Below, in pieces: positions 29,747 through 52,576 of a DNA stretch of 64,000 bases (the stretch's first letter is position 1; each line of letters begins with the position of its first letter). The notes under the pieces were generated by a model, which was given only the letters and a program-made list of their open reading frames with translations, was not told the DNA's origin and searched no databases. The position numbers and the translations under genes were made by a program. Origin of the DNA: Mesaphorura yosii (taxonomy: Eukaryota; Arthropoda; Collembola; Poduromorpha; Tullbergiidae); NCBI GenBank assembly GCA_009869945.1, contig WIXG01000049.1, positions 124,001-188,000 on the forward strand, in the 5' to 3' direction.

Positions 29747-32434
29747 ATGGCAGCAATGGAAGTTGAAGTTCCTGCAGCCTTTGGTGCACAGTCAACCGTT
29801 GATGCTCCAGCTGCTGGCGGCCCTGCAACTTCTGCTGATTTTGAGGTAGGCTCCAAACTAGCATTAGACTTTTAAAACAACGGCATTAATTCATTAACTG
29901 TTGCCTATGGTATTTTGTGCAGATCATCATATACCACATCAGCAGCTACCTCCACTTAAATGACCTGAAAATCTTCCGCCTGGTTAACTCCATCTTCAAT
30001 GACATCGTTAATCGTCACCCAGTCTTTACTCGGAAATGTGTTGGCACAATCAGCACCAAATTCTACAATTCTGTTCGAGGAACAAATCCCAACAATCGGA
30101 TCGCGTTCAAGTACTTCAGGATGAATCACTTCAACTACCATCGTAACGTTGACATTTTCAGACTGTTTTGGAGAAATGTTGGCCAAACCATTACGCACCT
30201 GACACTATCAAACTCCAGCTTCGAATGTGACGGCTTCTGCTTCATTCTTAATAACCTGCCCGTCCTTCACAGCTTGGTGTTAATTGGAATTAAGCTACGT
30301 GATATAGACAACCTTCATGCAATCAACTTAGTTGTAAACGACGATCAAATCCCTCGTCCAAATCATTGCCACGTAGAGAATATCAGGCAGCCGCTGAAGC
30401 ATTTGGTTTTCGACAACATGAATTACGTTGAGAACTGCTTCTTCGACTTTTTGATTGAGCGAACAAGTAAGTGCAATTGATTTGGCCCTCTCCATCCCTA
30501 TTTTTAGGGACGTATTTTGTAAGCAACGTTTCTTGTTCCACAGGCGCACTGGAGTCGATCGCCATAACTTCGTGTTTTCATCCTACTACTACAAATTCCT
30601 ACATTCATCGTCAGCGAGAGCCCAAGCCTCCTCTGGATATTCCTGGTGAAGTGGTCAATGCAGCTATACTCAATTATGCGGTTGAGCAAACCAAGCTTGA
30701 GGCACTATTTGAACAATTTAAGTACTATTTGAGGTCAATTCTGGACAAAAATGGTGCCTACATCAAGAAAGTGACACTCGTCAACAATTTCCGCCAAAGT
30801 GAACTCCTTCCTTTATTCACATCAATTCAAACGTTGGCTCCGACTGAATTCACTGCGGATGTTCGCCACGAAGAGAAGCCTGGCAGAACATTGTTTGGAC
30901 CAACTGTGATTGACCAGGTTAAAGTTATCAACGCTTTCATCTCCACTCGCGGAAGGAATTTGCAGAAACTGTCTCTTGACTTCTTCAAACAATTTACAAA
31001 TGGTTATCTAACAGAGCTGCTGACTCACGCAGCGGCTTCCTTGAAAGAAATTAAAATTTGCTACGACCACAATAATTTGGCGAGTGGAGAAGTCATGAAT
31101 TTGGAAGTTGTGCAACGAATGGGGAATTTGGAGAGGTTTGAGCTGACTGACAAGGTTGCCGTGGATAGAGAAGACAAGAAACAGCTGCTGTCGAAGAAAA
31201 AGTCTCATTCAATCTCTATAGAGCAGAGGGCAGACATTTTGAACAGAATCAGCTCCAAAGTCAACACAAATTTCATCCTAAATCTACCGAAGAGTATGTC
31301 TGCTCTGAAGCTTCTCAGCATTCAAAGTCCAACAAATTATTTGGAGCCAGCTGATCTTGCCGGAAAAGTAAACTTTAGTCTTAGGAGCACGATTAACTAA
31401 AATGCAGTTGGAGCCTTAAAGTAACTACGATATCTCTCTTGATTATCAGGCTCAGCTCCTGGCTTCGTTTGGCAACCTGTCAAGTTTAGAAATTAAAGGC
31501 CCTTGGTTGCACGCGGATCCGGCTCCAATGCTTCAGTCAATTTTTCAACACTTGCGGCAACTCAATCGGCTCAGTTTAGTCAATTGCAATATCAAGGATA
31601 AGCACTTGACCAGCCTTGCGCACAGCACCGTTCGCGACCTACGCAAGTCAAACGTGCTTCTGCTTCCCGTCCATGTTCCAGAGCCTGGATTTGGTGATCC
31701 GTTTCCGTTTTTGAATCCGATACTGGAACATGGTGTTCCTAAACCGAGTTTGGGCGACATGAATGGCAAGTCACGAGTTAAAAGTTGAAGTCCCCTTTAA
31801 TCCTGATTTCGCAATTTACTGACTCCTGACTCTGACATACATTCAGCGTTGGAATATTTGGATTTGTCCGAAAATAATGGCGTAACAATTGCCACAATTG
31901 GATATTCGCTTCCCCGCCTTCCACAACTGAAGTCGTTGGGCTTGTCTTCATGTCACAATGTATGAATCTTGTGTCTTCTAATGTCTGAATCACTAAAGTT
32001 GGGTTGACGCTAGGCTAACTCTCTTTGTCCAACAGGTCAATGATGGAGCACTCACATTAATTGCACATTATTTGCACAATCTGGAAGAATTGAATATTAA
32101 ACACGTTCGGCGTATTACACAGATTGGGTTGAATCATGTCATCGATGGCTGTAAACGATTGAAACGTTTGTATGTGTCAAAGGTGAGACCCTTCTGCCTT
32201 CTGTCTACGCTCTCAGGAAGATAAATGTCATAAATTGACTCGTCCACTGGAATCTTGCAGAAAACTTCCCATCCCGTTCATAAGCATGGGGGACGACTGG
32301 AAGGATTCAAACTGATGAAGGCAGGTGGATGGCTGAATATACAATTGCATTCTCACTATTACGAAATCATTTTGCCGTCTGAAGAAGCGGATCCGATGGA
32401 AGGTGAACCGTCGGACAAGGAAGACAATGAATAA
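29747..32434 (+). CDS. F-box and leucine-rich-repeat protein (FBXL-like)
   Basis: Exons 29747-29845, 29923-30466, 30544-31367, 31450-31765, 31847-31959, 32036-32182 and 32261-32434 join in phase to 738 residues. Residues about 33-75 form an F-box (ISSYLHLNDLKIFRLVNSIF), the part that binds SKP1 in SCF ubiquitin ligases. The rest carries irregular leucine-rich repeats, with clear ones late in the protein (LPQLKSLGLSSCHNVNDGAL, LHNLEELNIKHVRRITQIGL) that resemble FBXL repeats. The tail is acidic. The intron at 31766-31846 starts with GC (ATG|GCAAGT) and not GT. The substrate is unknown, and I cannot assign an ortholog. Confidence 0.8.
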
Positions 32435-34115
32435 ACTAATTAAGCCCATTCAAAAGCAGTAACTAAATTACAATTGCGTAAAATTAGTCAAATTCTATGA
32501 ACCTCATCAAACAACCGCCAATGCTATAAGTCGAAACTGTAACCTATTTTAGTGATCGAATAAAAATCTTCGTTAGATTTTGTGTTTTGTCGCGTAACTG
32601 CTGAGAAATCACTTTGAGCAGAGATTTCAGGAAAATGGAAACGTTTCTTCAAAATTCTAAGATGAATGAGTGATAGAAGAGGAAAGAAACGCGCAACAGG
32701 TTCCCTGGTTCCCTCCGTGCTGCAGACACCATGGAGTCCAGCCAAGATGAAGAATGGGCGCGCGAGAGGCTCGAGTTTGAGATTTCATTTCCTGTCATGT
32801 CTTCTTGTCAGTGGCTCTGTAAATTATGGGCTTTTTAAGTTTTGGTTCTGACCCACTTCAACATTCCATTCCAAAGATTCGTCGTACTGATGGAAAATTC
32901 ACTGAATTCTAGGAGAAACAATGCGAAAGAATGTTAGTAATTATATGATTAAACTTGGCTAATTTCGAAAATTTGAGATGAAGGAGATATGACTCGATGA
33001 CTCTGTCTTGGCAAATTAGTCGTAAATCACCTTTGTAAAATTGTCCCCATTGTATTTTAATCATGTCACTGGAATATTCACACGCACGGAATGACTCGAA
33101 TGACCAGAGAAGTCAAGATTAATTCGCGTCCATGCGTTCTGTTCTGCTATTTGTACGCCCAAATAAGGAACCGCTTTCAAGATCTCTGCACTCTTCAGTC
33201 CACCGCAGTGCTGGCCGCTGGTGCATTGATCGAGTCGAGCCAAGATTCGAGATGAACTCGGCACTGCAGTCTGCAAGCACGGCACGGCACGGCGGAGATG
33301 CACCTACTCGTGTGATTTATGGGGAACACATGGGGACCTGAATAGGAAACCTGGCTCTTAAATTGTGAGGAACACACATGAGAACGAGAATTAAATCAAA
33401 AAGCAATTCTTCACCCGCGTCTCGCGATTCTCATTCATTCATTCATCCTGCGTCTTACAAATTGAGCTAATCCATTCATGACAGACGCAGAAGACGCGGA
33501 CGAAGACGCGGACGTGGACGCAATAAGGCTTTGAAATTAATATTTATGACCTCACGGCACTGTGCAGTGGTGGTGTTAATCCTTTCTTTATCTTGTCTCA
33601 CCTTTCATACTCGGCTGACTCGGGATTAAATATGGACTTAATGTGTTTAATCTTTGTATGGTCATGTACCTGTCATTTTATGAGTTATTTATTTACATTT
33701 GTGGACACGAACATGAAGGCGAACAAGACGGGTTGGCAGCAGAAAAGACCCGAATTCAGTCGTTTCTATTCCTTCTCGAAATTCCAATCTCAAGCCTTCG
33801 CTGTGTGAGCCTTCGGTTTGCATTTTGCAGGTGTGAATCCGTCCCATTTTATGAGAGTCATAGCAAAGCGTCTTGGAAAATATTCGCTATTCGTTTTATT
33901 GCGAATTTAACTACTTGCAGTTTATTAAATGCATTCACAACCGAGTCGAGTGTGGATTAGCTCACAGTTTGACGCTTGGCAGGGAACCATCCTGAAATTT
34001 TGCGCTTTGCCGGAAGAATTACCCGTGAAGCTTCAAAACGACTGAATAAACTATAATCGACAATTTGACAATCTTCAACCATTCACCCTTCTTGATCTCA
34101 ACTTCTCGATTCGGC
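32435..34115. other. Intergenic, no gene seen
   Basis: After the F-box gene's poly(A) signal nothing codes convincingly. At 33480-33520 a short run of GACGCG/GACGTG-like units repeats. Confidence 0.55.
32559..32564 (+). terminator. Poly(A) signal AATAAA of the F-box/LRR gene
   Basis: AATAAA stands 125 bases after the stop codon, on the same strand, and is the first such hexamer there. Confidence 0.6.
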
Positions 34116-34312
34116 ATGAATGAACGCCAACCGGAAGGTGATGATTTTGAAGGTACTGTCGCTCATTGGTATTAATAGAAAGAATTTTCGACACCGTTTA
34201 TGTAATCTCGGTCTCTTCAGTTTATCGGCAAAAGTCGCAGCAGGTTTACAGAAGCCCTATTAAATTGTTTGAACCAAGGATTGCACTTATGGCTTATGTA
34301 ACAGATGCATAA
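34116..34312 (+). CDS. Candidate two-exon small ORF (42 residues)
   Basis: ATG 34116 opens MNERQPEGDDFE, followed by a possible donor at 34153 (GAAG|GTACTG). A good acceptor at 34220 (CTCGGTCTCTTCAG) continues in phase with VYRQKSQQVYRSPIKLFEPR and stops at 34312. The intron would be 68 bases, the size of the smallest confident introns in this window (62-85). The peptide is charged, has no membrane segment and matches nothing I know. The phase fit alone has a one-in-three chance, so this remains a candidate. Confidence 0.3.
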
Positions 34313-34960
34313 TTCATTTTGGGGTAATTTTAAGTACTTTTATTGGGAATGGCAATCCCCGATGCGATACCCGTTGTAGTGATGCGATTATCAAACGATG
34401 TTCCCTATTTTCTTCTCTTCGTAGGTCAGCATTCTCACCGACGCAGTCCTGCGACCTGTGGCTCTTTTACCAACAATTTAAAAAAGGGTCCATGAAACAC
34501 GAGGCGGGTCTCATTCCTTTGTGGCTCGCACCCGTGGCCGTACCAGCATTGATAACAATGCAGCATTAATTATTATAACATTAATTTCTGTAGGAATTCA
34601 GGTGTCCATCTGTCTGGTCCGGTCTTTCTCATTCTCAGCAACTCTGCTGCCATGTTACATAACCCTGCCGAGTATCGAGTTTAACGCAGCGTAGAGCAGC
34701 GCTGGGTTAACAGGTGGAAAAGCGGTTCAATCACACCATAAAACCAAAACAATGCGTGCAGGTATACATGGGCACGTAGAACAAGACTGACACGCCTGGC
34801 AGTGCAGTGCAGTGGACTCCCTGGGTGTGCGACACCGCACGGAACCACGCCAAGTCAGGGATGCGTTTATAATTCTTGAGCTGCTTCGTGTCATTGATGA
34901 AAACACGGTGAATTAGTGAATTATGAGACACGAATGAACTGTGAGATTCCGGTGATGCAG

Positions 34961-34967
34961 TATAAAT
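34961..34967 (+). promoter_or_regulatory. TATA-box-like motif upstream of the micropeptide ORF
   Basis: TATAAAT is followed about 25 bases later by CTCAAGT, a fair initiator-like site. A transcript starting near 34985 would reach the 30-codon ORF at 35169 after about 185 bases. Confidence 0.35.
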
Positions 34968-35097
34968 CATTGCAGCAGCGGCTCAAGTTATTTTTGGAAT
35001 CGCTTCTCACAAATGCTGCAGCAACTTAAACATACGAACGAGACTTGATTCTTGTTCTTTAAAATTGCAAACGACAAACGGGAGTCGATCTGCTTTC

Positions 35098-35169
35098 ATG
35101 ATTTCGAAGAACTGCTTTTCACGATACCGTTTATTAAATTCACACTGTATCTCCTTATCTCCGAAATAA
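35098..35169 (+). CDS. Upstream ORF (23 residues) that overlaps the micropeptide start
   Basis: The frame ATG 35098 to TAA 35167-35169 encodes 23 residues. Its stop codon shares one base with the start of the next ORF (TAATG), an arrangement that can allow termination-reinitiation. The peptide itself (MISKNCFSRYRLLN at its start) is not recognisable, and it may simply be an uORF. Confidence 0.25.
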   Translation: MISKNCFSRYRLLNSHCISLSPK

Positions 35170-35261
35170 TGCAGGTGATAGGTTGGGTTCTGTTATTGTT
35201 GAGCCTAATTATTCTGCTAATTATAATCCTCTGGCTAATCTTACGTGATTACACAGTGTAA
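35169..35261 (+). CDS. Candidate sarcolipin/sarcolamban-like membrane micropeptide (30 residues)
   Basis: A 30-codon ORF with A at -3 of the ATG encodes a single hydrophobic helix, then LWLILRDYTV at the C-terminus. Vertebrate sarcolipin (31 residues) ends MWLLVRSYQY: the W, L, R and Y fall in register, and length and layout agree. Drosophila sarcolambans (28-29 residues) are of similar size. Such peptides inhibit the SERCA calcium pump in muscle. A strong donor (GTAAGTGA) follows at 35279, so the 3' untranslated region may be spliced. Hydrophobic helices match easily by chance, so homology is not shown. It could also be an unrelated one-helix peptide or no gene at all. Confidence 0.4.
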   Translation: MQVIGWVLLLLSLIILLIIILWLILRDYTV

Positions 35262-38200
35262 CATTCCTGGAGCTAATAGTAAGTGACACATGCGACCATG
35301 GAAGCCCCGGCGACTCGGTTCAGATTGAAATGAGATACACCAAACACAGGCAACATGTACTTAAACTTACACGACACGACTTAAAATTGAAATGCACCAC
35401 AGTCGAGCCTCAGAACTCAGAAAGTACCCGGACCCGAATTTAGTTGCGCCATGCTTGCTTCCTTGTTCGTGAAGAGCAAAATGGAATTTAATTAGTAACG
35501 CTTCTCGTTTATGTCGTATTCAAACACAATAATGCATAACACGAGGTTGGTCATTGTGAACGTGGGCCTCTGTACTGCAGCCAGCTGAATTAGAACCTAA
35601 ATAGTCGTTTAGTTGCTTTTATGACGGGACGAACATCTGCATCTCCTGTTCGCAATGACATGTGACATGACGTGTTGTCGAGTCTAATGAGCCACAGCAC
35701 AGAAAACGAGAAATTGGCTACAGCTCACCAGCTCAGATATGGTTTCCAATAATTGAGTAATGTGAATTTGCAAGCGTGACTAGCCAGCTCAGAATTTGGC
35801 TCGGGCTCTTGGAGATATTTCGACGAATTTTCGGTTGCAAATTAATTGAAAGAGTGCGAAGGCATTTATAACTTGGTTGAAGACGCCGTAAGGATCTTCG
35901 AAAAATTCTCACCAATGGAATACGAGTATAGTTTGAAAGGAGCAAAAGTCGCCGAGGTGTCTACCAGAATAGCTTTTGTCTTTATGAAACATCCTGCAGC
36001 CTTTTAAATTGGTCTTTCAGCCAACACACCGCCTGAGACGGTAGACCGCCTGTGTTCAATACGTACGTACGATATTCGTTTTACGATCTGGAGACCAGCA
36101 AATCAAAGCAGCCGAGCCGCTCCATTGAAAAGTCAAAAAGTCAAAGTTTGACTCTTGGACATTATTTCGTGTTGTCCGCCCATAATTTGTGTTCTCGGAC
36201 CAAGAACATGAAAACATGAATAATGTGAATAGATTGTGACACTAAATTGCTATTATTATTGTAATGGAACACGACCGCCGGCCCGACCGGGCTCAGTTAC
36301 AAAGGCGTGCCGAGCCGGTGGTCCTTGCGTGTGCATTTCACCGGCAAAGCAACAATACAGGCGTTGATTGAATTGAACTCAATGGAATGCCATTTTTTGT
36401 ATTGTATCGCGCCTGGCTCTTGCTTGCATTTGTGTTTGTACTTTTGAACTACGCGTAGCCGAAGATGTGGTTGTAGGATATGAATGAATACAATACTACA
36501 ATGCGAGACCTCCGTCCAAGACGCTCGTAATTCATGCCCTGTGTTTGTGTCTTCTTCGCAGTGAAATCCTCAGTGAATTGAAGACTCCTCTGATCTAGAA
36601 GACTCAAAGTCAGCCTACACGTTAATTGCTGTGCCCAACAGGAATAAAATCGCAATTTTTTATGCACAATTAGCATTCTCACCATCGCCGCACGCCGTAA
36701 TTAACCTGAAACGTGTGAAAATCTTTCGAGAATCCATTAACCATTGCCAAACGCCAAATACGCAGGCCGAATCGATGCGATGCGTTGAGACTGCGACCGA
36801 ACGATTCGCACCAGACGAAATTCATCCGGTTCCCGTGCCTTTACGCGAAATTCATCACGCTTGACTTGAATACGAATACGACAGTGAGCATCAGTTCAGA
36901 AGCAGCAGCAGAAATGTTAATGGGAGAAGTATTTTTGGTGCATTCAATTAGTCAAGGTTGAGGTCGAGGCTCGAGTTGTTATAAATTATTGCTCGTAAAT
37001 AACGTGGAAATGGAAGCTGCAACCATTTACGAAGGGTTCACTCACGACACGGCTCACAGTCGTCATGATCATGATCTGTGACCCTTTTTACTTTACGTAC
37101 GCTCGCGTTCGACGCTCACGACAGTTACAAACTGTATTTTGTATTTTTTAAACTCATAACTACCAGATTTACTTTTTAGTGCCCCATTCAATGAATCTGG
37201 ATCTGCATTTGAAGCGATTTGATTCGCTTGCTCCCTTCACGGAGGGGATTTTAGTACTTTAGCGTCAGTCTCAGGTCCGGTCAGGACCCTTAACACAAAA
37301 GTGAATAATAAAACGTTACCAACAGCAAACTACAACCATACTAGAAATTTTGAACCAAAATTTTATTTTTTTCAACCAGCGGCCAGTCAGACGTAGTTGA
37401 AGAGCTGAGAAGCTTCATTAATTCATGAATTACAAATAACAGGTATTAATTAACTAGTGAACAGTCGACCATCGGACAGCGACAGAATCTCGTCGGAAGA
37501 GGAAGGCGTTCACCTTTTCGTTTTTGCATAGCAGCAAGCAATTCAGACGCAAGAATCTCGCTTGGCTTGGTCGGGCTGTCTGCGGCCGTATTTCATTGTT
37601 GTAACTAAATCCATCATTTGAGTTCCTTTTAGTTACGGTTGTCTGTTTCACGACGAACTTTTATACTCGACTCAGATTCATATCGTAGAATTAAGCAAGA
37701 GCAAAAGCCAAGCATTGCGTATTTGTGTTTGTGCCTTCGCTTGTATTGCGCGAGCTAATTTTCATGTTTCATCTATACTGTTGGCTTTTATCGTTTAATT
37801 TTGCATCTGCCTTCATCTTCTTCTGCAATGGGTTGGGACATGGGACATTTGACAGCTCAAATCACGTCACAAGTTGAAATCACAGCGCAGTTGCTGGCCT
37901 CGGATTCTGCATTTCACATTTGCATTTACAGTGCAGGTGTGAATTTAATTTCCCGAAATAAACCTCACTTTTATTGCCATTCCCATTGCCTTGCTGGTTT
38001 AATGACTTGTCAAGAAGGGAAGTCATAATAATTCGCAGTATGCGGCACTGCTGCAAGCAATAAAATCCAAGAACTAAAAATACAACGCATTAACACAACA
38101 ATGACGAAGAAAATTGTATTCCCGCACTTTGACTGCGACAATGCAAAAATATTTACGTTTCTGCATGAGTCTTTGCATCGCTCGGGTGAAAGGTCAATCT

Positions 38201-39734
38201 CTCCAGGGTTTCTTCTTTACTTCTCCCTTCGTGTAGTGCAATGTTTTGATGAGGAGACGGGAAATATTTGCCTTGTTTTTTTGTTTTCGCAAAGATGTGA
38301 TTGAATGGATGCACAATGGGAGGTCATTACTCATCATCGCCGTACCTTCTTGCCTTGGTAGAGCAAAATGGCTTGTACAGAACCACAACGAGAAAATAAA
38401 TCCCTTAACATCTGTCGAATCTATCCTGCTTTAGTGTTGGTGCGGTGGGATTCAGTTTTCGTATTCTATCCAGCGAAATCTGCAATTAATTAAAAGAATC
38501 CGTAATCCAAAGACGAGTGTCGATTTCCTTCGGCTTCCTGGCCTGAAATTCTGAAAATAAGTACGTAAAACTTTATACTTAAGGAATAAACCGGAAGGGT
38601 GATGATATAATCTTTTACACAAACACCCAGTGCAGGAAGTTAAGCCGGTAGTGGCGTGGCCCACGTCCAAGGAACCTTTACCTTAATGCATTAATCCTTT
38701 CTGATCTTGTGTTAATGCGTAATACCAGATGATTTATTTTGAGCTTCCCCAAATGATTTCTTCGAAACGCTGCGATTTCTTGACGATATAAATCAAATCT
38801 CCAAGCGGCTGAAGCAAAGAAAGTCAGAAATTGTGTACACTCTCCCAGCCTTTCTGTGTCGTCAGTGTCGTGTCCTTCCTTTCTTGCTGGGTCTTCAATT
38901 TTTCGATAATGACGGGCAAAGTCAAAAGTCAGATTGCTGGTGGTCTTTGTCCTACAACCTCAAATTGTTCAACACATCGTTCACGCTAAGGCGAAAGCAC
39001 TGATTCGCTATTCAACACTTTTCATGTGAACAATGGAAATTCGATCTATTCACTTTGCTATTGCGCTTGCTTTGCGGCTGTCCATTGTCCACTATCGGGC
39101 AGGATTTCATATTGTGATTGTCCATTCCATACTGACCAGTGACAGTGACTAGCTATTGACACAACTGACTTTAACATTTACATGACGTACCGCGACAAGC
39201 TCAGCAATGAAACGAAGCTAATTTAACATAGAACGTAGACGACCACAACAATGGGTGATGAAATCAAAACTGAATACTACAATGAGTTACAAAATCTCTG
39301 AAATCAAAGACGTGCAAGGCCGACTGACCAACCATTTTTCCATAACTGATTAAATTGCATCAAATTTTAGCTTGCCAGCCTGGCCAGACAGGTACCCATC
39401 AACTTTATCAAGGCCAGTAAACCGCAAACTTTCATCAATCTCAGCATATACAAAGCTTGATTTTTGAAAAACGAAATGGCGCAAAGAGATGAAAAATCGG
39501 AAATAAAGCGTATTCACAATTAAAATTCTATAACTAATTCTAAGAGTCATTTTTAATTGAAAAAATACATAATGGCCAATTCGTCCATGACTCCATGCTT
39601 TCCGTATAATAGAATGTTTAATTGTGCTCGGAACCCTTGGAGCTTGAGCACTTGGTGCAGGTCACAGAACAAAGTCAAAGTCAACACGAAAGAGGGTCCT
39701 CAGCCGGGTCTGTGAAAGTGAGTACGGCAGTCGT
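35262..39734. other. Gene-free stretch upstream of Pax3/7
   Basis: This is 4.5 kb with no supportable exon. Given the developmental gene to its right, part of it probably is control DNA, but I cannot name a site. Confidence 0.5.
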
Positions 39735-40555
39735 CGTCATAAATTCTTCATTCATATTGTAATCAATCGAAATATGGAAACTGAAACTGGCGGCTGACGA
39801 CGGGGACTCGGGACTTGGACCTTGTCTAATTGCCCACAAAAGCAAAAGATTTTGAATGCAGCAAACCAATTGCGTGATTCTGCGTGCCTGTGTGTTTGCT
39901 TGCATCTGGAATCTCAATTCATGCTCAATGCAATTTTCCCTGCATTCAGGACTCAAGCATGAAGCATCAGCCATTTTCATTTCTCTTATTACAGGCGTAG
40001 CGTAGCCGTAATCGTAAATGGTAAAAACGAGGAGCGAATTCGGTTACAAAACGCGTGGAATCCGTCAACAAGCCAAATCTAATCCAATGACTCGCTAGTC
40101 GAGCCGAGTCGAGTCGAAGTCGCGCCGCTAACTAGCTAATAAGAAATCGGAATGCGAATGCGAACGCGCGATACAACGCGGTGACCAAGTACTGTGAAAT
40201 CGACGTGTTTTACGTCAATTAGGATTTGGCCAAAGCGTCCTGTCCCGCTATTTATGCATGGCGAAGAAGATTTGGCACAGTTGGATTTGCGAACCGACGC
40301 GAGACAGTGAGCCTCATTAAGAAAACATCAAAGCAAAGTAGTTTACTCCTCGTTATTCGTTATTTATCCGCATTTGTTCTCAATCTGTGTTAGTGAATAA
40401 CGAATAAGGGCCTATAGGCACGTCGGACTATACAATATGGTGAATTAAATCTTGCAAGACGCAGACGTGGCATGACAAGTTGGTAGTTGGACAAAGGCAA
40501 TTAGCCAAGCATGTTAATTAGCATAACTTGACAGTAATCAGGCTCGCATTAATAA
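39735..40555 (+). repeat. Left arm of an inverted non-coding duplication flanking Pax3/7
   Basis: Read forward, this arm matches 47758-48490 read in reverse complement as a collinear series of blocks. In block 40041-40100, 56 of 60 bases match 48109-48168. In block 40205-40273, 64 of 69 match 47934-48002. Weaker matches lie at 39735-39780, 39809-39830, 39900-39926 and 40491-40550. Frames are interrupted, and the differences show no three-base rhythm, so it is not an old exon. It holds homeodomain-type (TCAATTAG) and octamer-like (ATTTATGCAT) words. The left arm carries about 70 extra bases around a hairpin at 40353-40409. Its end is about 1.1 kb before the Pax3/7 start. Confidence 0.85.
40353..40409. 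repeat. Inverted repeat TTATTCGTTATT / AATAACGAATAA within the left arm
   Basis: ATTCGTTATT near 40355 pairs with AATAACGAAT at 40396. The pair lies in the part of the left arm that has no counterpart of equal length in the right arm. It shares AATAACGAATAAGG with 11214-11227. Confidence 0.5.
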
Positions 40556-41620
40556 TCCAAGAAATAAGCACGTCAAAGTCAGTGCAAATCTTGCAGATTA
40601 CTCTTTCTGTGCAGGCTTTAATTGTTTAATTTCCTATTTCTTTCGATTCTGTGGCTGTATTTGAATCGTCGAGACTCGAGAGGTTGTGCCGGTCGCTCGC
40701 ATTTGTGTGATTGGAATCCGTGTCGTGGACCTTCCCCTTTCACTCCCCAATGCTCCTCCCTGAATAACTCGCGTGTGAATGTGAAAGTCCAACAATGAAT
40801 TTCTGTGTTCGAGGCTTGTAGTGGTCTCCTACCTTTGATTCCAAGGGTGTAAAGTCAAGAAGAGCCGACAAGATGATCAGGATCATGTTGTGTGTGTAGC
40901 GTAAGTGTGAATTGTTAAATGTACAAACTACAACCAAACAACAACTATCACGGGGACAGTAATGTAATGATGATCTTGCTTGCGTAGTGTAGTAAGAAAG
41001 CAGGCAGGATTTGGACCTCCCAAACAGACGAACAGACACCCTAATTCCTGAGTCCGCAGGGTGCCTGTGCCTTCGACTTGACTGACTTCACCCTGCAATG
41101 CCATGCCATGCTATGCTGCACCAAACCGTAGATCGTATTTTAATTGTACAATACATCACTTGGCAGGCAGGCACTTGGCCTGGCAAATAAGAAGTGTTAA
41201 CCACTACCTAATTGGTAATCAGTCCACGTCCTGTCGTACGACGAATCTGACCAGACAACTCGGCTCCAACGTTCTTAGACCGCTCCATAATCATTTCGGA
41301 ACTTCTCATGTTAAACTCATTTAAGTCAAGTTTTTGTCGATTTGTACCGGCATCGAAAGAACTCAATTGGTTTTTAATATCGTGTCTTGGCATTGCGAGT
41401 CAACCAGCCAAAGCTCCAAAGGAAGATTACTGAAAAACGAACAATCCATTGATTTAAATTGCAATTAATTAGTTATTGGAGGTATAGTTGGTAAAGAATT
41501 AGTTTAGTGGAAGTATTGCTATTAACAACCTTGAAGCCCAGAAAGTGTGAAGTGAAAGTGATTCTGATTCATACCTACGAGTGGCCTTTCACGTGTGAGA
41601 ACGAGAGAGATCTGTTACAA

Positions 41621-44450
<2,830 letters not shown>

Positions 44451-44534
44451 ATGTTGTACCGGCAGACCAACTCGACAATAGCAATAATGTCATCTTGTAA
44501 TTCTAGTATCGCTTCCTCCATTTATTATGAATTT

Positions 44535-44540
44535 AATAAA
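44535..44540 (+). terminator. Poly(A) signal AATAAA of Pax3/7
   Basis: AATAAA stands 84 bases after the stop codon on the same strand, with no earlier AATAAA. Confidence 0.6.
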
Positions 44541-46558
44541 GGAATTCTGGAGTTGGAATTTTGATGTCAAAGGATTGAATTATTAATTTCATTGCGGATG
44601 CCACTAACTTTATTCTAAAATAGTTGAAAATCCCCAACAAACCGAGAGAAGTTCAGATGTTCATTTACATATCATGTATCAAATTAAGACGCTGAAACGA
44701 TATCAGAAAATCCTTCCTGTGTCACGTTCCTATCCCTCAAGGCATCATCCATCTTGCCACACCAACCCACGGCATGCATTTTGCACGGTGATTTATGCAT
44801 AATGATAATTTGCGCGGGATAGCTTTGTTAATAAGCAGTTTGCGCCTGTGAATGAAAGCAAAATAAATGGTAAATGATAACCTTCATCTCAGCGATTTAG
44901 GAGCCGAGAAAAGAAAAGCATTCGCCAGAACATTCAAGTTCGAAGAAGCCAAACCGAATGACATATGAAAGCAATGCACTACGCTTTCGTATTCGCTTGC
45001 TTTGCTTTATCTGTCTGCAACAGGTGTTAAGAAAATATTAACACTGATGCAACTCATGCCATGCCCTGGCCTGGCCTCGCTCGCATGAAAACGAAGACGA
45101 AGACGATATTATTTAATAGCAGTCATTGTAATGCGGGGACTCCCACAGTGACGATTCTCTTGTACTTCTCCGATCGCCGATCCATGAATTACAAATTCCT
45201 TTCGCCCTGCGCTGTGGACGTGTTGTGGACGGTGTTTGTCGGCAAATAATCTTTGACGTCAGCGCAGTGAGCCAGCAAAACATCACCAATGCTGGCAACG
45301 CAGTACATGGCGATATGAATTATGAATTATGCATCTGATAGTTCAAGTGTCCAAACTCTCCAAACCATTCTTTTAGTATTTCGCAGACGCAAAGACGCCA
45401 ATGCCAATAAAGAAAAGTGCAAATATCGGTACAGAGTGAGTGTAAGAACCCAGTTGACGTGGCATCTTAGTTTTGTGCCCTTCCATAGATCACCCTTGAT
45501 TTGTTCTCCATTTTGCTCTTCCGTTGTTAATTCGTAAAAACGAATCCAAGCTTCCGAACCGAGCTGAATGGGGCACGGGCACAAAATTGAGTGGAGAATC
45601 GGACAAGGAAGCGAATGCTATCGTAGAAAGGAGCCTGGAACCCTGCGCCATGACCCAAGCGAATCAAATCTCTTCAAATTCTAATGAATAGATCATAAAA
45701 GCAGTCAACCAAAATAGAAACTGGTTGCCAGTTGCTGCGTTGCTGGTTGTTAAAAATATGTATACAGGCAGGCCCTGTGAACATGAATGATAAAAAAGGG
45801 TCGGGTCAGAAGCAGAACCGAACAGCCAGAAGATCCCTCAGCTTCCATTTCCTTTGCATTTTGTAGTTTGTACCTCAACCTTGACTAATTTCCAAACTGG
45901 CACGACGCGGGTCGGCATTAGCATTCTGAATTCCGGCTCGGTTGGCTGTTTGTTGCTCCTCGTAATGCTCGTAATTGAAATGATGAATTTAGTCAAGCGT
46001 GGCAAATTTCGCGTAAACGGACGGGAACTGGATGAATTTTTACTGGCTCGAATCGTTCGGTCGCAGTCTCAGCGTCCCAGGAGCTCCTTGCTCGATTCGG
46101 TAGATTTTCACAGGTTTCAGGTTAATTATTACGGCTAATTATCCCATCGCGGAGCACGCTGGAGGTCTTCTTTACATACGAGTGTACGTGTACGTGAATG
46201 CTCGCAGGATGACAACAAGCACAAAAGCGTGAAGCGTGAGCTGCGTACGTCGAACAGTGCTGGCACATTCCTCGCGTTCAACTCAGTCATCACCTTCATT
46301 ATTGAGCCATTGAGCTTGCGTCTGAGCCTGAGCGAGACGAGACGAAGCGAAGGACCACCGGCAATTCTTTGAATGACTTCATCCAGGCAAGACACAAGAG
46401 GCAAGGCAGGTATTATGATAATGGTAGCAATTTATTGTCAAGACGAATCTGATGGAAGATGCTTACTAGTTACGAGTTCAATGTCCACTTCACTGCACTG
46501 CATTGCCGAGTGCCGAGATTGCTTAATCTATAATTCACATTCACAGTGACACCACACG

Positions 46559-46776
46559 ACGATAAAGGAGAGACCACCCGCCGACTCTTATCTTAATAAG
46601 ATCAATTACTGCCTGCGCGCGTGCCAGAGGAGGCGAACCGTCGACTGTCAATCTTATCTTATCTTACGTTGTCGATCTGATCTTGCTGCAGCGTGCTGTC
46701 ATCGTCATCTGTCACATTCATCACACCTGCACTGCACTCGTCGTCGATTGGTCCGACTCGTCGCTTGCTCTTATCA
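46559..46776. promoter_or_regulatory. GATA-site cluster
   Basis: Three AGATAAG-type sites, two of them overlapping (46653-46664), and two weaker ones lie within about 220 bases. It could be an enhancer read by a GATA factor. Site clusters this dense also arise by chance in AT-rich DNA. Confidence 0.3.
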
Positions 46777-47757
46777 TTTTACAATTCAAACAATCTGTAA
46801 TCAGTAATCAGTGCATCATCAATTTGCTTGTGTTTGTATTTCTGCTTAATTCTGCACTCCAACTCTCGAATCACGTGATCAAAGATCAAAATAACGTACA
46901 TACATGGAATCTTGGGCCTTTGTTCATCGTGGAATCTGATCTTCAGTTCACACCAGACGGACTGGAACCAAAGTCTGAGCTGGGCCAAGTCGAGTCAAGT
47001 TAGAGCAGCCAGGCTGTCTGAGAGTTCCGTGGCCCGTGGAGTGTGAGAAGAGTCAGAAAGAATGATGTGTGTGGTTATTTTATTAAATGCTGACCACCTC
47101 CTGTGAGCAATCCCCATTCATCTTCATCTTGGGTGCGCTGCATTGTGCTTGTCCGTGATCCGTCCGAGACCCGACCACAAACGCAGCGGTTCCGTGGTGC
47201 TCTTGTGTCGGCAATCCTTTTGATTTGGATGCGAGAGCCAAAGCCAAGCCAAGGATGCAAGCACCACAAATTGAATGAGTGACCAGAGTCGAGTCAGAGT
47301 CAGAGGTCAGACAGTCAAATACTTTAACTAAGATAAAAGAACCGGGCCTTCGATTGTGTGCACGATGTTTGTTGGCGTTGGCGAATTTTCGACCGAGCCG
47401 AAACCTTTGAGTCGACTTGAGTGACACGTAACGAAGTAACAAATGTAAATAAATAACTCATAATGTGACAGGAACATGACCGTGCACGGATTACAGCGGA
47501 TTAGACCCGATTTAATCCTCGTGATACAAGAAAGGGATTAATATCAAGGCGGTGTGGTATTCTAATTCATGAATATTCATTGCAAAGCCTAACTCACTAT
47601 CTTAGCCTGAGACAATCCCACTCCATGCAACTAAAAAATGTCGAATTGTAAATTAACGTATTGAAGAACTTTCTTACGCCTTCGGATGGAGTCTTGTAAA
47701 GAACGATAGGATTTCTATCAAATCACTCGTACAACTCTTTTGGGCAATCGCATATCA

Positions 47758-48490
47758 AGCATTACTACGAGCCTAACTACTGTCAAGTGATTTTAATTAA
47801 TGCGTTTGGCTAATTGCCTTTGTTCAACTTGTCAAGCCGAATTGCGTGCATTCTGCTTTCTGCATACCACATTCGTGATTCTTGTATTTATGAGCAGTGA
47901 ATTACTTTAACGCACTTTTAATGAGGCTCGTCTAAATCTTCTTAGCCATGCATAAATAGCGGTACAGGACGCTTGAGCCAAATCCTAATTGACGTAAAAT
48001 ACGCCGATTTCACAGCACTTGGCCACCGCATCGTATCAGGCCATGCCTCCCAACTTTTTCTCATTAGCAATTAACGACTTTGACTTTGACTCGACTCGGT
48101 TCGGTCCTGACTAGCGAGTTATTGGATTAGATTTGGCTTGTTGATGGATTCTACGCATTTTGTAACCGAGTTCGCTTCTCATTACGACTACAGCACGACA
48201 ATGGCGATATGCTCCGAAATCGAAATGGTAATTGCGAAATGCGCGTGACGTGAACTTTCACGAATCTTGAATGAATTCCAGTTCCAGATGCAACGCTAGC
48301 ACTGAATTGCTTTGGTCTCGCCTGGCTTTGCCTAGCACAGCACAAATTCCCTTTGGAGTCCTGCATCGTGTTGCTTACATTCATTCAAAACCGTGCGCGG
48401 AACGCATCTTTTGTGTGAGCAACGCAATTAGACAAGGTCCCAGTTTCCATATTTCGATTACAATATGAATGGAGAATTTATGACTCCGAA
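47758..48490 (-). repeat. Right arm of the inverted duplication flanking Pax3/7
   Basis: This is the reverse-complement counterpart of 39735-40555. Order and spacing of the blocks agree with the left arm: the two best blocks are 106 bases apart here and 104 bases apart there, and that interval also aligns. It begins about 3.3 kb after the Pax3/7 stop. No terminal repeats or target-site duplications are evident at its ends. I saw no further copy in the window. Confidence 0.85.
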
Positions 48491-49790
48491 TTCGAATTCA
48501 GAGTTGCATTCACATTCACAGATACACTAAACGACGACGTCGACCCTTTTGACTTTCAGTGTCTGCAACTTTTTGGTATGTCGAGTCCTCTGAAAAGGCG
48601 GCCACGTAATTAATGCATTCAATTTATTCGCGGCTGTAGTCGCCCGTCCCAGACTCACATCAACCATTTTGAATCAGAGTTTTGAAGAGTCGCAACGTCG
48701 CGTCCCAAGAATGTCTGCCCTGAATCGCATCGCAATTCTACTTCTTTTCACATAATTGAGATTGGGATCACTTTGCTCGGAATTCCCATACGTGCGTGTA
48801 AGTTCACAAATCCCTTCGTCACGCTATCTCATGCATGCCAACTTGGCAGATTTTCGCACCACAATCACATATGTGAATGAATTATACATACGCGAGTCCC
48901 GTGAGGCACTTCACAAACTTGCTTTGACATAAATCATGTGTGACTGCGATCCGGCGAATGCCAATTACTTCAAGAGTTATGAATTAGAAACTGATCCGTG
49001 TAATTTGCAGTTGGCGGCTTTTTAAAAGTTTACACGAGTTCTCGAATCTCGATGCGAAGAGAAAAGAAATGAAATCGGAGAGGATGAGAGAAGATTGGGC
49101 GTAGAAAGCTCACCTTAGTCGAAATAATCTTTATCAATGATGATGACCATCATGATGATTCACTGAAGTAGTTCAATTGCGTAATTTATAATAATTGTTT
49201 AAATATTGTGATTGTATAAGTTTGCCTGAAACAATATCATTTACGAGTTGTGGCTTCCTGCCGCACGACAATCTTTTAACAATCACGCGAACCAAGTAAA
49301 CTACTCTTGTGCTTGTGAGATCAGTCTCTCAAAATGTTAAAAGGTGACGAAGACTTTGTCTCGAAATTCAGGTTAATGCTGTACTCTAGTCGAATTTACT
49401 TTAAGAATAAATTAACTAAATAAGAATTACTTGAATTGCATACGGAAAAGTAGCATGAGTTGATCATCTTGTACACAAATACACGTATCACTGAGAAACA
49501 TTTATTTTGATGCAGAATGCATGTATTTTCCTGTCTCGATTTCGATGCGGGCATCGTGCGCGTGCGCCCTAAATTCTAGTTTTAGATCATCACACCGGAA
49601 TTTCCCTTTGCTTGCTGTATAATTAATTGTTAAGGTAACATCTTGGATGTCGATATCACATTTGATTTATTCATGACTTTCAATTCTGGATCCGAATCGG
49701 ATAATAAAATAGACTCCCGTGCTGGATTTCGTTCCAGGTGTACTAAAAATATATCAACCGACAAAACCTGTCAACCGTCATGTCCGTCGC
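48491..49790. other. Intergenic, no gene seen
   Basis: The stretch lies between the right duplication arm and the 3' end of the methylmalonyl-CoA mutase gene. It is AT-rich and holds only short chance ORFs. Confidence 0.55.

Positions 49791-52576
<2,786 letters not shown>

Follow-up and report, generated by a model that had tools for sequence, protein, structure and literature searches.

Inverted copies of a three-part non-coding array flank a Pax3/7 gene in the collembolan Mesaphorura yosii

Why would non-coding DNA that lies 5′ of a gene for a developmental transcription factor recur, inverted, 3′ of the same gene? The question is raised by a Pax3/7 gene of Mesaphorura yosii (assembly GCA_009869945.1), which lies in a window of 64,000 nucleotides on contig WIXG01000049.1 (positions 124,001 to 188,000, forward strand); coordinates below are those of the window unless a contig is named. 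A first-pass annotation, made from the letters of the DNA, had noticed one pair of inverted blocks around this gene. We found that a non-coding array at Pax3/7 was duplicated locally and in inverted orientation long ago and that both copies were kept, and as a description this is established. In the reading that we favour, with a probability of roughly 0.6, the array is cis-regulatory and belongs to Pax3/7, and its two ancient, inverted copies have been maintained by selection as a paired, or shadow, enhancer set.

Three modules are repeated in inverted orientation around Pax3/7

Comparison of the whole window with itself returned six non-self matches at E 1e-3, all inverted and all linking DNA 5′ of Pax3/7 with DNA 3′ of it. 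When 31800-41600, to the left of the gene, was compared more sensitively with 44200-49790, to its right, 11 matches fell below E 0.1, all of them inverted; among direct matches the best reached E 0.54, and the best match to a reversed, uncomplemented control E 0.18. Given 11 inverted against 0 direct matches and such weak controls, chance is excluded, and both the duplication and its orientation are established. The matches define three modules, each with one copy on either side of the gene:

33526..33702, plus strand: module A, left copy, some 8 kb upstream of the start codon of Pax3/7
36237..37230, plus strand: module B, left copy, an inverted match to 45656-46440
39731..40555, plus strand: module C, left copy, some 1.1-1.9 kb upstream of the start codon of Pax3/7
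41621..44450, plus strand: Pax3/7 coding region, start to stop codon, from translation, Pfam and a match to a solved structure
45656..46440, minus strand: module B′, right inverted copy, from sequence comparison
47439..47590, minus strand: module A′, right inverted copy, from sequence comparison
47758..48490, minus strand: module C′, right inverted copy, from sequence comparison

The copies lie on opposite sides of Pax3/7, 7-14 kb apart, and their arms have no sharp ends. The matches of module C span 39731-40553 and the reverse complement of 47761-48489. It has the longest core (40026-40273 against the reverse complement of 47934-48183), with 81-82% identity over 258 columns (E 4e-58 to 3.7e-63), and two further inverted sub-blocks, one pairing 40485-40553 with 47761-47829 (83%) and the other 39736-39783 with 48441-48484 (90%). 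The identities that had been reported within this core, 56/60 for 40041-40100 and 64/69 for 40205-40273, are exact by direct count, and the 104/106 bases between the two blocks do align, more weakly than the blocks themselves. The core of module B is an 84-base block (36783-36866 against the reverse complement of 45991-46074; 86%, E 2e-21), accompanied in collinear order by weaker anchors at 36698 (E 1e-5), 37162 (E 3e-4), and 36946 and 36237 (E 0.022 each). That of module A is an 80-base block (33623-33702 against the reverse complement of 47439-47518; 79%, E 6e-15) with 25 consecutive identical bases starting at 33678, and a weak anchor lies at 33526-33549 (E 0.063). The inverted structure proposed in the first-pass annotation is therefore real, while its extent had been underestimated, since only C was noticed and the A and B pairs were missed.

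The modules follow the order A-B-C on the left and B′-A′-C′ on the right, that is, C-A-B when the right side is read in reverse. The arms had been described as collinear, which holds inside each module and fails between modules: A and B alone keep the mirrored order, and C is out of place. On the right side, just outside C′ and B′, a 30-base direct match joins 48508-48537 to 46533-46562 (87%, E 0.013).

The array is present in two copies in the assembly

We searched the whole 93.0-Mb assembly with a method that skips very common words and scores the best candidates only. The C arm, the right side, the A and B DNA and wider flanks all matched this locus alone, in searches at E 0.001 and at E 10. 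For each of three words of 23-24 bases that are identical in both copies, the genome holds exactly one forward and one reverse site at up to 3 mismatches, and the same words read backwards as controls gave 0, 0 and 1 matches. The genome search of both arms that had been suggested earlier thus establishes a copy number of two, both at this locus.

Searches for repeats inside the arm segments at E 0.01 found none in five of the six segments, and in the sixth a 22-base palindrome at 48483-48504. Two old copies of a mobile element had been offered as one explanation of the blocks; because the DNA occurs in two places with no extra genomic copies, and because the arms contain no long repeats, we reject a transposon origin. 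An assembly artefact or collapsed haplotype can likewise be set aside by inference, since the copies are alike in patches only and lie in unique, differing surroundings on one 319-kb contig.

The modules lack recognisable coding or known RNA content

The earlier statement that the arms are non-coding held in checks of codon position, substitution pattern, Pfam and Rfam. In the C core each of the three codon positions has 14 mismatches, and the gaps measure 4 and 6 bases. Across 8 ungapped blocks read in six frames each (48 frames), non-synonymous codon changes outnumbered synonymous ones in 46, and both exceptions have 2-3 changed codons. We considered coding exons and rejected them: the longest open frame shared by both copies spans 27 codons (module B, minus strand) and has 7 non-synonymous against 1 synonymous among its changed codons. 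None of the 7 stop-to-stop frames of at least 100 codons lying wholly within the two intergenic stretches matched Pfam at E 0.1. Rfam gave no match at its curated threshold in the window, nor at E 1 in 33000-49800, and no tRNA was found. A shared stable RNA fold was also rejected, as a single segment of the 8 folded stood out (z -2.26) and its counterpart in the other arm did not (z 0.12). Accordingly, the absence of recognisable coding or known RNA content is established for both copies.

One further candidate arose in module C, where an ATGGC at 40258 is followed by a donor-like GTGAGC, resembling a first Pax3/7 exon. This was rejected because the start codon at 41621 has a donor and an acceptor that match in phase, and because the right copy runs into a stop after five codons.

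Identity between the copies is patchy

Over all modules, the two copies share 25 identical runs of at least 9 bases, amounting to 358 bases in all. We compared this pattern with 240 simulations of uniform decay at four rates and one indel rate, in which only one copy was mutated, and which form a rough null. The variance of identity per 20 columns was 18.95, against a simulated maximum of 11.93. With gap columns skipped, runs of at least 10 bases held 242 bases, against at most 221 in any simulation and at most 148 at the rate that matches the observed identity, and the longest identical run, of 31 bases, exceeded the maximum of 24 at that same matching rate. Identity is therefore patchier than simulated uniform decay, and this patchiness is established here together with the duplication itself.

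Pax3/7, its neighbours and other self-matches in the genome

In the Pax3/7 gene we checked the start codon, exons 1-3 with the first junctions, the stop codon and the AATAAA that lies 3′ of it at 44535-44540, and placed the later junctions by eye. The product matches PF00292 (paired domain, E 1.5e-61) and PF00046 (homeodomain, E 2.5e-23) in Pfam, and it is this presence of a paired domain and a paired-type homeodomain in one gene that identifies it as Pax3/7. The closest solved chain is 1fjl ‘PAIRED PROTEIN’ (E 8e-35), which we take to be a Drosophila protein, and the string HSINRILG is presumably an octapeptide-like motif. To the right lies one other recognised gene:

49791..50889, minus strand: methylmalonyl-CoA mutase gene, 3′ part (PF01642, E 5e-51 for 50188-50889)

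Its frame at 49791-50156 was taken by eye as the C-terminal exon. The mutase gene and Pax3/7 converge, and the right array B′-A′-C′ sits between their 3′ ends, a position in which it is no obvious promoter for a further gene. The modules thus occupy gene-poor flanks of Pax3/7, a developmental transcription factor gene. Farther left, at 29890-31788, there are three consecutive F-box/leucine-rich-like frames, none of which has a Pfam match. Apart from the inverted matches around Pax3/7, 124 kb of the contig that carries the window gave only four self-matches at E 1e-3, all direct, at approximately 109.6-113.4 kb (window -14.4 to -10.6 kb). These repeats are diverged, are offset by 66-264 bases and perhaps represent a repetitive coding region.

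A paired-domain search of the genome gave 16 matches from 21 candidates. Two more Pax3/7-like genes were found on contig C6, at approximately 172-175 kb and 197-200 kb, on the same strand and 24 kb apart; both, near 175 and 199 kb, resemble the Pax3/7 of the window in their paired and homeodomain exons. When 100 kb of C6 around both genes were compared with the window, five matches were obtained at E 0.01 or better, all of them Pax exons. A self-comparison of this 100 kb at E 1e-3 gave 7 rows, comprising 1 inverted pair, 2 palindromes, 3 short direct pairs and the paired-domain exons. The inverted pair (217040-217142 against 218398-218500) is 95% identical over 103 bases with its halves about 1.3 kb apart, and perhaps marks the ends of a young mobile element; one palindrome, at C6:211006-211317, measures 312 bases and is 80% self-complementary. 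Inverted pairs are hence not unheard of in this genome, and the one on C6 is young-looking and single. Elsewhere in the 93-Mb genome, 115.8-395 kb of contig C22 carries six Hox-type homeodomains in one row and on one strand, which by their signatures look like abd-A, Ubx, Antp, ftz, Scr and Dfd; such a row agrees with an arthropod and argues against a tardigrade. Two Pax3/7 genes have also been described in a centipede, with their orthology to the fly genes left unresolved (PMC3807789).

Interpretation of the mirrored arrays

The first-pass annotation had suggested a duplicated non-coding pair under constraint, and this suggestion fared well: two copies genome-wide, their non-coding nature, patchy conservation and the gene-poor flanks of Pax3/7 are what such a pair would be expected to show. 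We infer that selection, not conversion, kept the modules alike, that they act as enhancers and that Pax3/7 is their target; an enhancer role at Pax3/7 would follow from their location, their patchy conservation and general knowledge of developmental loci. In outline, a multi-part cis-regulatory array would have been duplicated locally and inverted long ago; neutral DNA between its elements would have decayed past recognition, and the elements themselves would persist as identical patches of about 10-25 bases under purifying selection. Both arrays would most likely act as enhancers on the single Pax3/7 promoter, and may be either redundant, as shadow enhancers that buffer the pattern, or divided in their tasks.

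Several observations weigh against this interpretation. The left order A-B-C and the reversed right order C-A-B cannot be produced by one simple duplication event, so that C may have changed place later, a second event may have taken place, or the insertion may have been rotated via a circle; as speculation, re-insertion through a circular DNA intermediate would fit the rotated order. Constraint was judged from two paralogous copies only. The longest identical run of 31 falls within the range of the mildest simulated rate (maximum 33), and in 6 of the 8 ungapped blocks one or more short frames are open in the left and the right copy alike (9/48 frames). Neither the modules nor a similar pair were found in the 100 kb surrounding the Pax3/7-like genes on C6. 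Finally, the homeodomain- and octamer-like words pointed out earlier are present and are weak: the 358 identical bases contain TAAT 7 times where nearby intergenic DNA would predict about 5, and they lack the paired-domain word GTCACGC. ATGCAT occurs once in these bases and the exact octamer ATGCAAAT not at all. By consensus, the identical runs also hold homeodomain-like, TAATCC, TTTATG, forkhead-like and Sox-like strings, all in small numbers. Motif enrichment was too weak to serve as support and was left unused.

A different history would start from a tail-to-tail duplication of the whole locus, A-B-C-gene followed by an inverted gene-C-B-A, with later loss of the second gene, whose array now serves, or merely shadows, the surviving Pax3/7. 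This is compatible with an enhancer role and agrees with the inverted orientation of the flanking arrays. It also agrees with the two Pax3/7-like genes 24 kb apart on C6: as that pair lies on one strand, the family seems to duplicate locally. We nevertheless consider it unlikely, as the flanks hold no convincing trace of a Pax exon or gene (best tblastn match E 9.3, best blastn match E 0.15), and as it predicts the right order C′-B′-A′ where B′-A′-C′ is observed, so that an extra move would be needed. In flies, gooseberry and gooseberry-neuro form a divergent, head-to-head gene pair, and a remnant of such a pair had been envisaged at this locus. That parallel failed, since both arrays would then sit 5′ of the surviving gene, while here one is 5′ and the other 3′ of Pax3/7; no Pax remnant was found in the flanks either. 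Gene conversion between the arms, keeping the blocks alike with no selection on their sequence, could in principle act on inverted repeats 7-14 kb apart, and two sub-blocks of the C core do reach 93%. Conversion would be expected to leave one or two long even tracts, in contrast to the numerous short runs, 9-25 bases long and separated by diverged sequence and indels, that are distributed over three separate modules; we regard it as very unlikely. Less credible still is that the blocks belong to transcribed non-coding RNAs or to small unannotated genes. The one segment that folds stably and the short frames open in both copies are in keeping with such a role, which is contradicted by the unremarkable fold of the counterpart segment, the lack of Rfam matches and tRNAs, and the mostly non-synonymous changes in the open frames.

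The arrays might instead be chromatin boundary or tethering elements that pair as homologues and loop Pax3/7 out on its own. The eve loop of Drosophila is bounded by Homie and Nhomie, and a boundary pairs with itself head-to-head, as described in PMC4765946, and shared binding sites are presented as one mechanism of boundary pairing in PMC13405320. Inverted copies that pair head-to-head in cis would by inference form a stem-loop. Such pairing would fold Pax3/7 into a private stem-loop, and one duplication would have yielded redundant enhancers and a confining architecture together. The idea suits a transcription unit that has an inverted copy at either end, and the spacing of the copies, 7-14 kb, resembles the approximately 16-kb eve domain (PMC13405320). 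The eve loop pair is, on the other hand, heterologous and not two copies of one element, according to PMC4765946. We counted six insulator words in the 3666 module bases. The Su(Hw) core TGCAT[AT] was mildly overrepresented (13 where 6.7 were expected; P 0.02 uncorrected, one of six words), and one TGCATA (40258, 47949) falls within a run that is identical in C and C′. GAGAG was absent where 5.5 were expected, CGATA (3 against 4.8) and GCTG[AC]G (4 against 3.4) showed no excess, and the CTCF word (0 against 0.1) is too rare to tell. These words may lend a boundary role slight support at most, and both the boundary function and the private stem-loop appear distinctly improbable to us.

Relation to known regulatory systems

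Taken as a duplicated enhancer set, the Pax3/7 arrays would bear on how redundant enhancers arise: a three-part array that is still legible as two mirrored copies round a segmentation-class gene would be a direct case of their origin by duplication. Each module carries an internal control in its other copy, and the identical patches would indicate the bases that matter. If head-to-head pairing were true, a local inverted duplication would have made enhancers and a confining architecture in one step. A search of titles and the opening lines of abstracts in the literature on duplicated or mirrored enhancers found no description of mirrored arrays around one gene, which is not proof of absence.

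Among known systems, the arrangement resembles the shadow enhancers of Drosophila Kruppel and other genes in having two regulatory regions, presumed here to act for one developmental gene, and differs from them in that the common descent of the two Pax3/7 sets can still be read in the DNA and that they flank the gene in inverted orientation. PMC10234526 describes it as unclear whether shadow enhancers commonly originate by splitting or by duplication. The modules are also like the duplicated conserved non-coding elements (dCNEs) of vertebrates, paralogous elements near developmental regulators; those trace to whole-genome duplication (PMC3826495), whereas both Pax3/7 copies are at one gene. 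The same source holds that, whole-genome duplication apart, conserved elements of one genome generally have unrelated sequences, and that segmental duplications are depleted of such elements or lack them (PMC3826495). Regulatory elements reported to have been copied by segmental duplication rather than by transposons are nonetheless a subject of study in the human genome (PMC13333887).

With gooseberry and gooseberry-neuro, the locus shares Pax3/7-class genes and an inverted layout; the fly locus consists of two divergent genes, whereas here one gene stands between two control arrays. As at homie and nhomie, two elements flank one segmentation gene, and orientation matters at eve (PMC4765946); those two pair as different elements, while the two sides of Pax3/7 carry copies of one array in inverted orientation. 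Both shadow enhancers and duplicated conserved elements are already known kinds, of which the mirrored arrays around a single Pax3/7 gene would represent a new variation.

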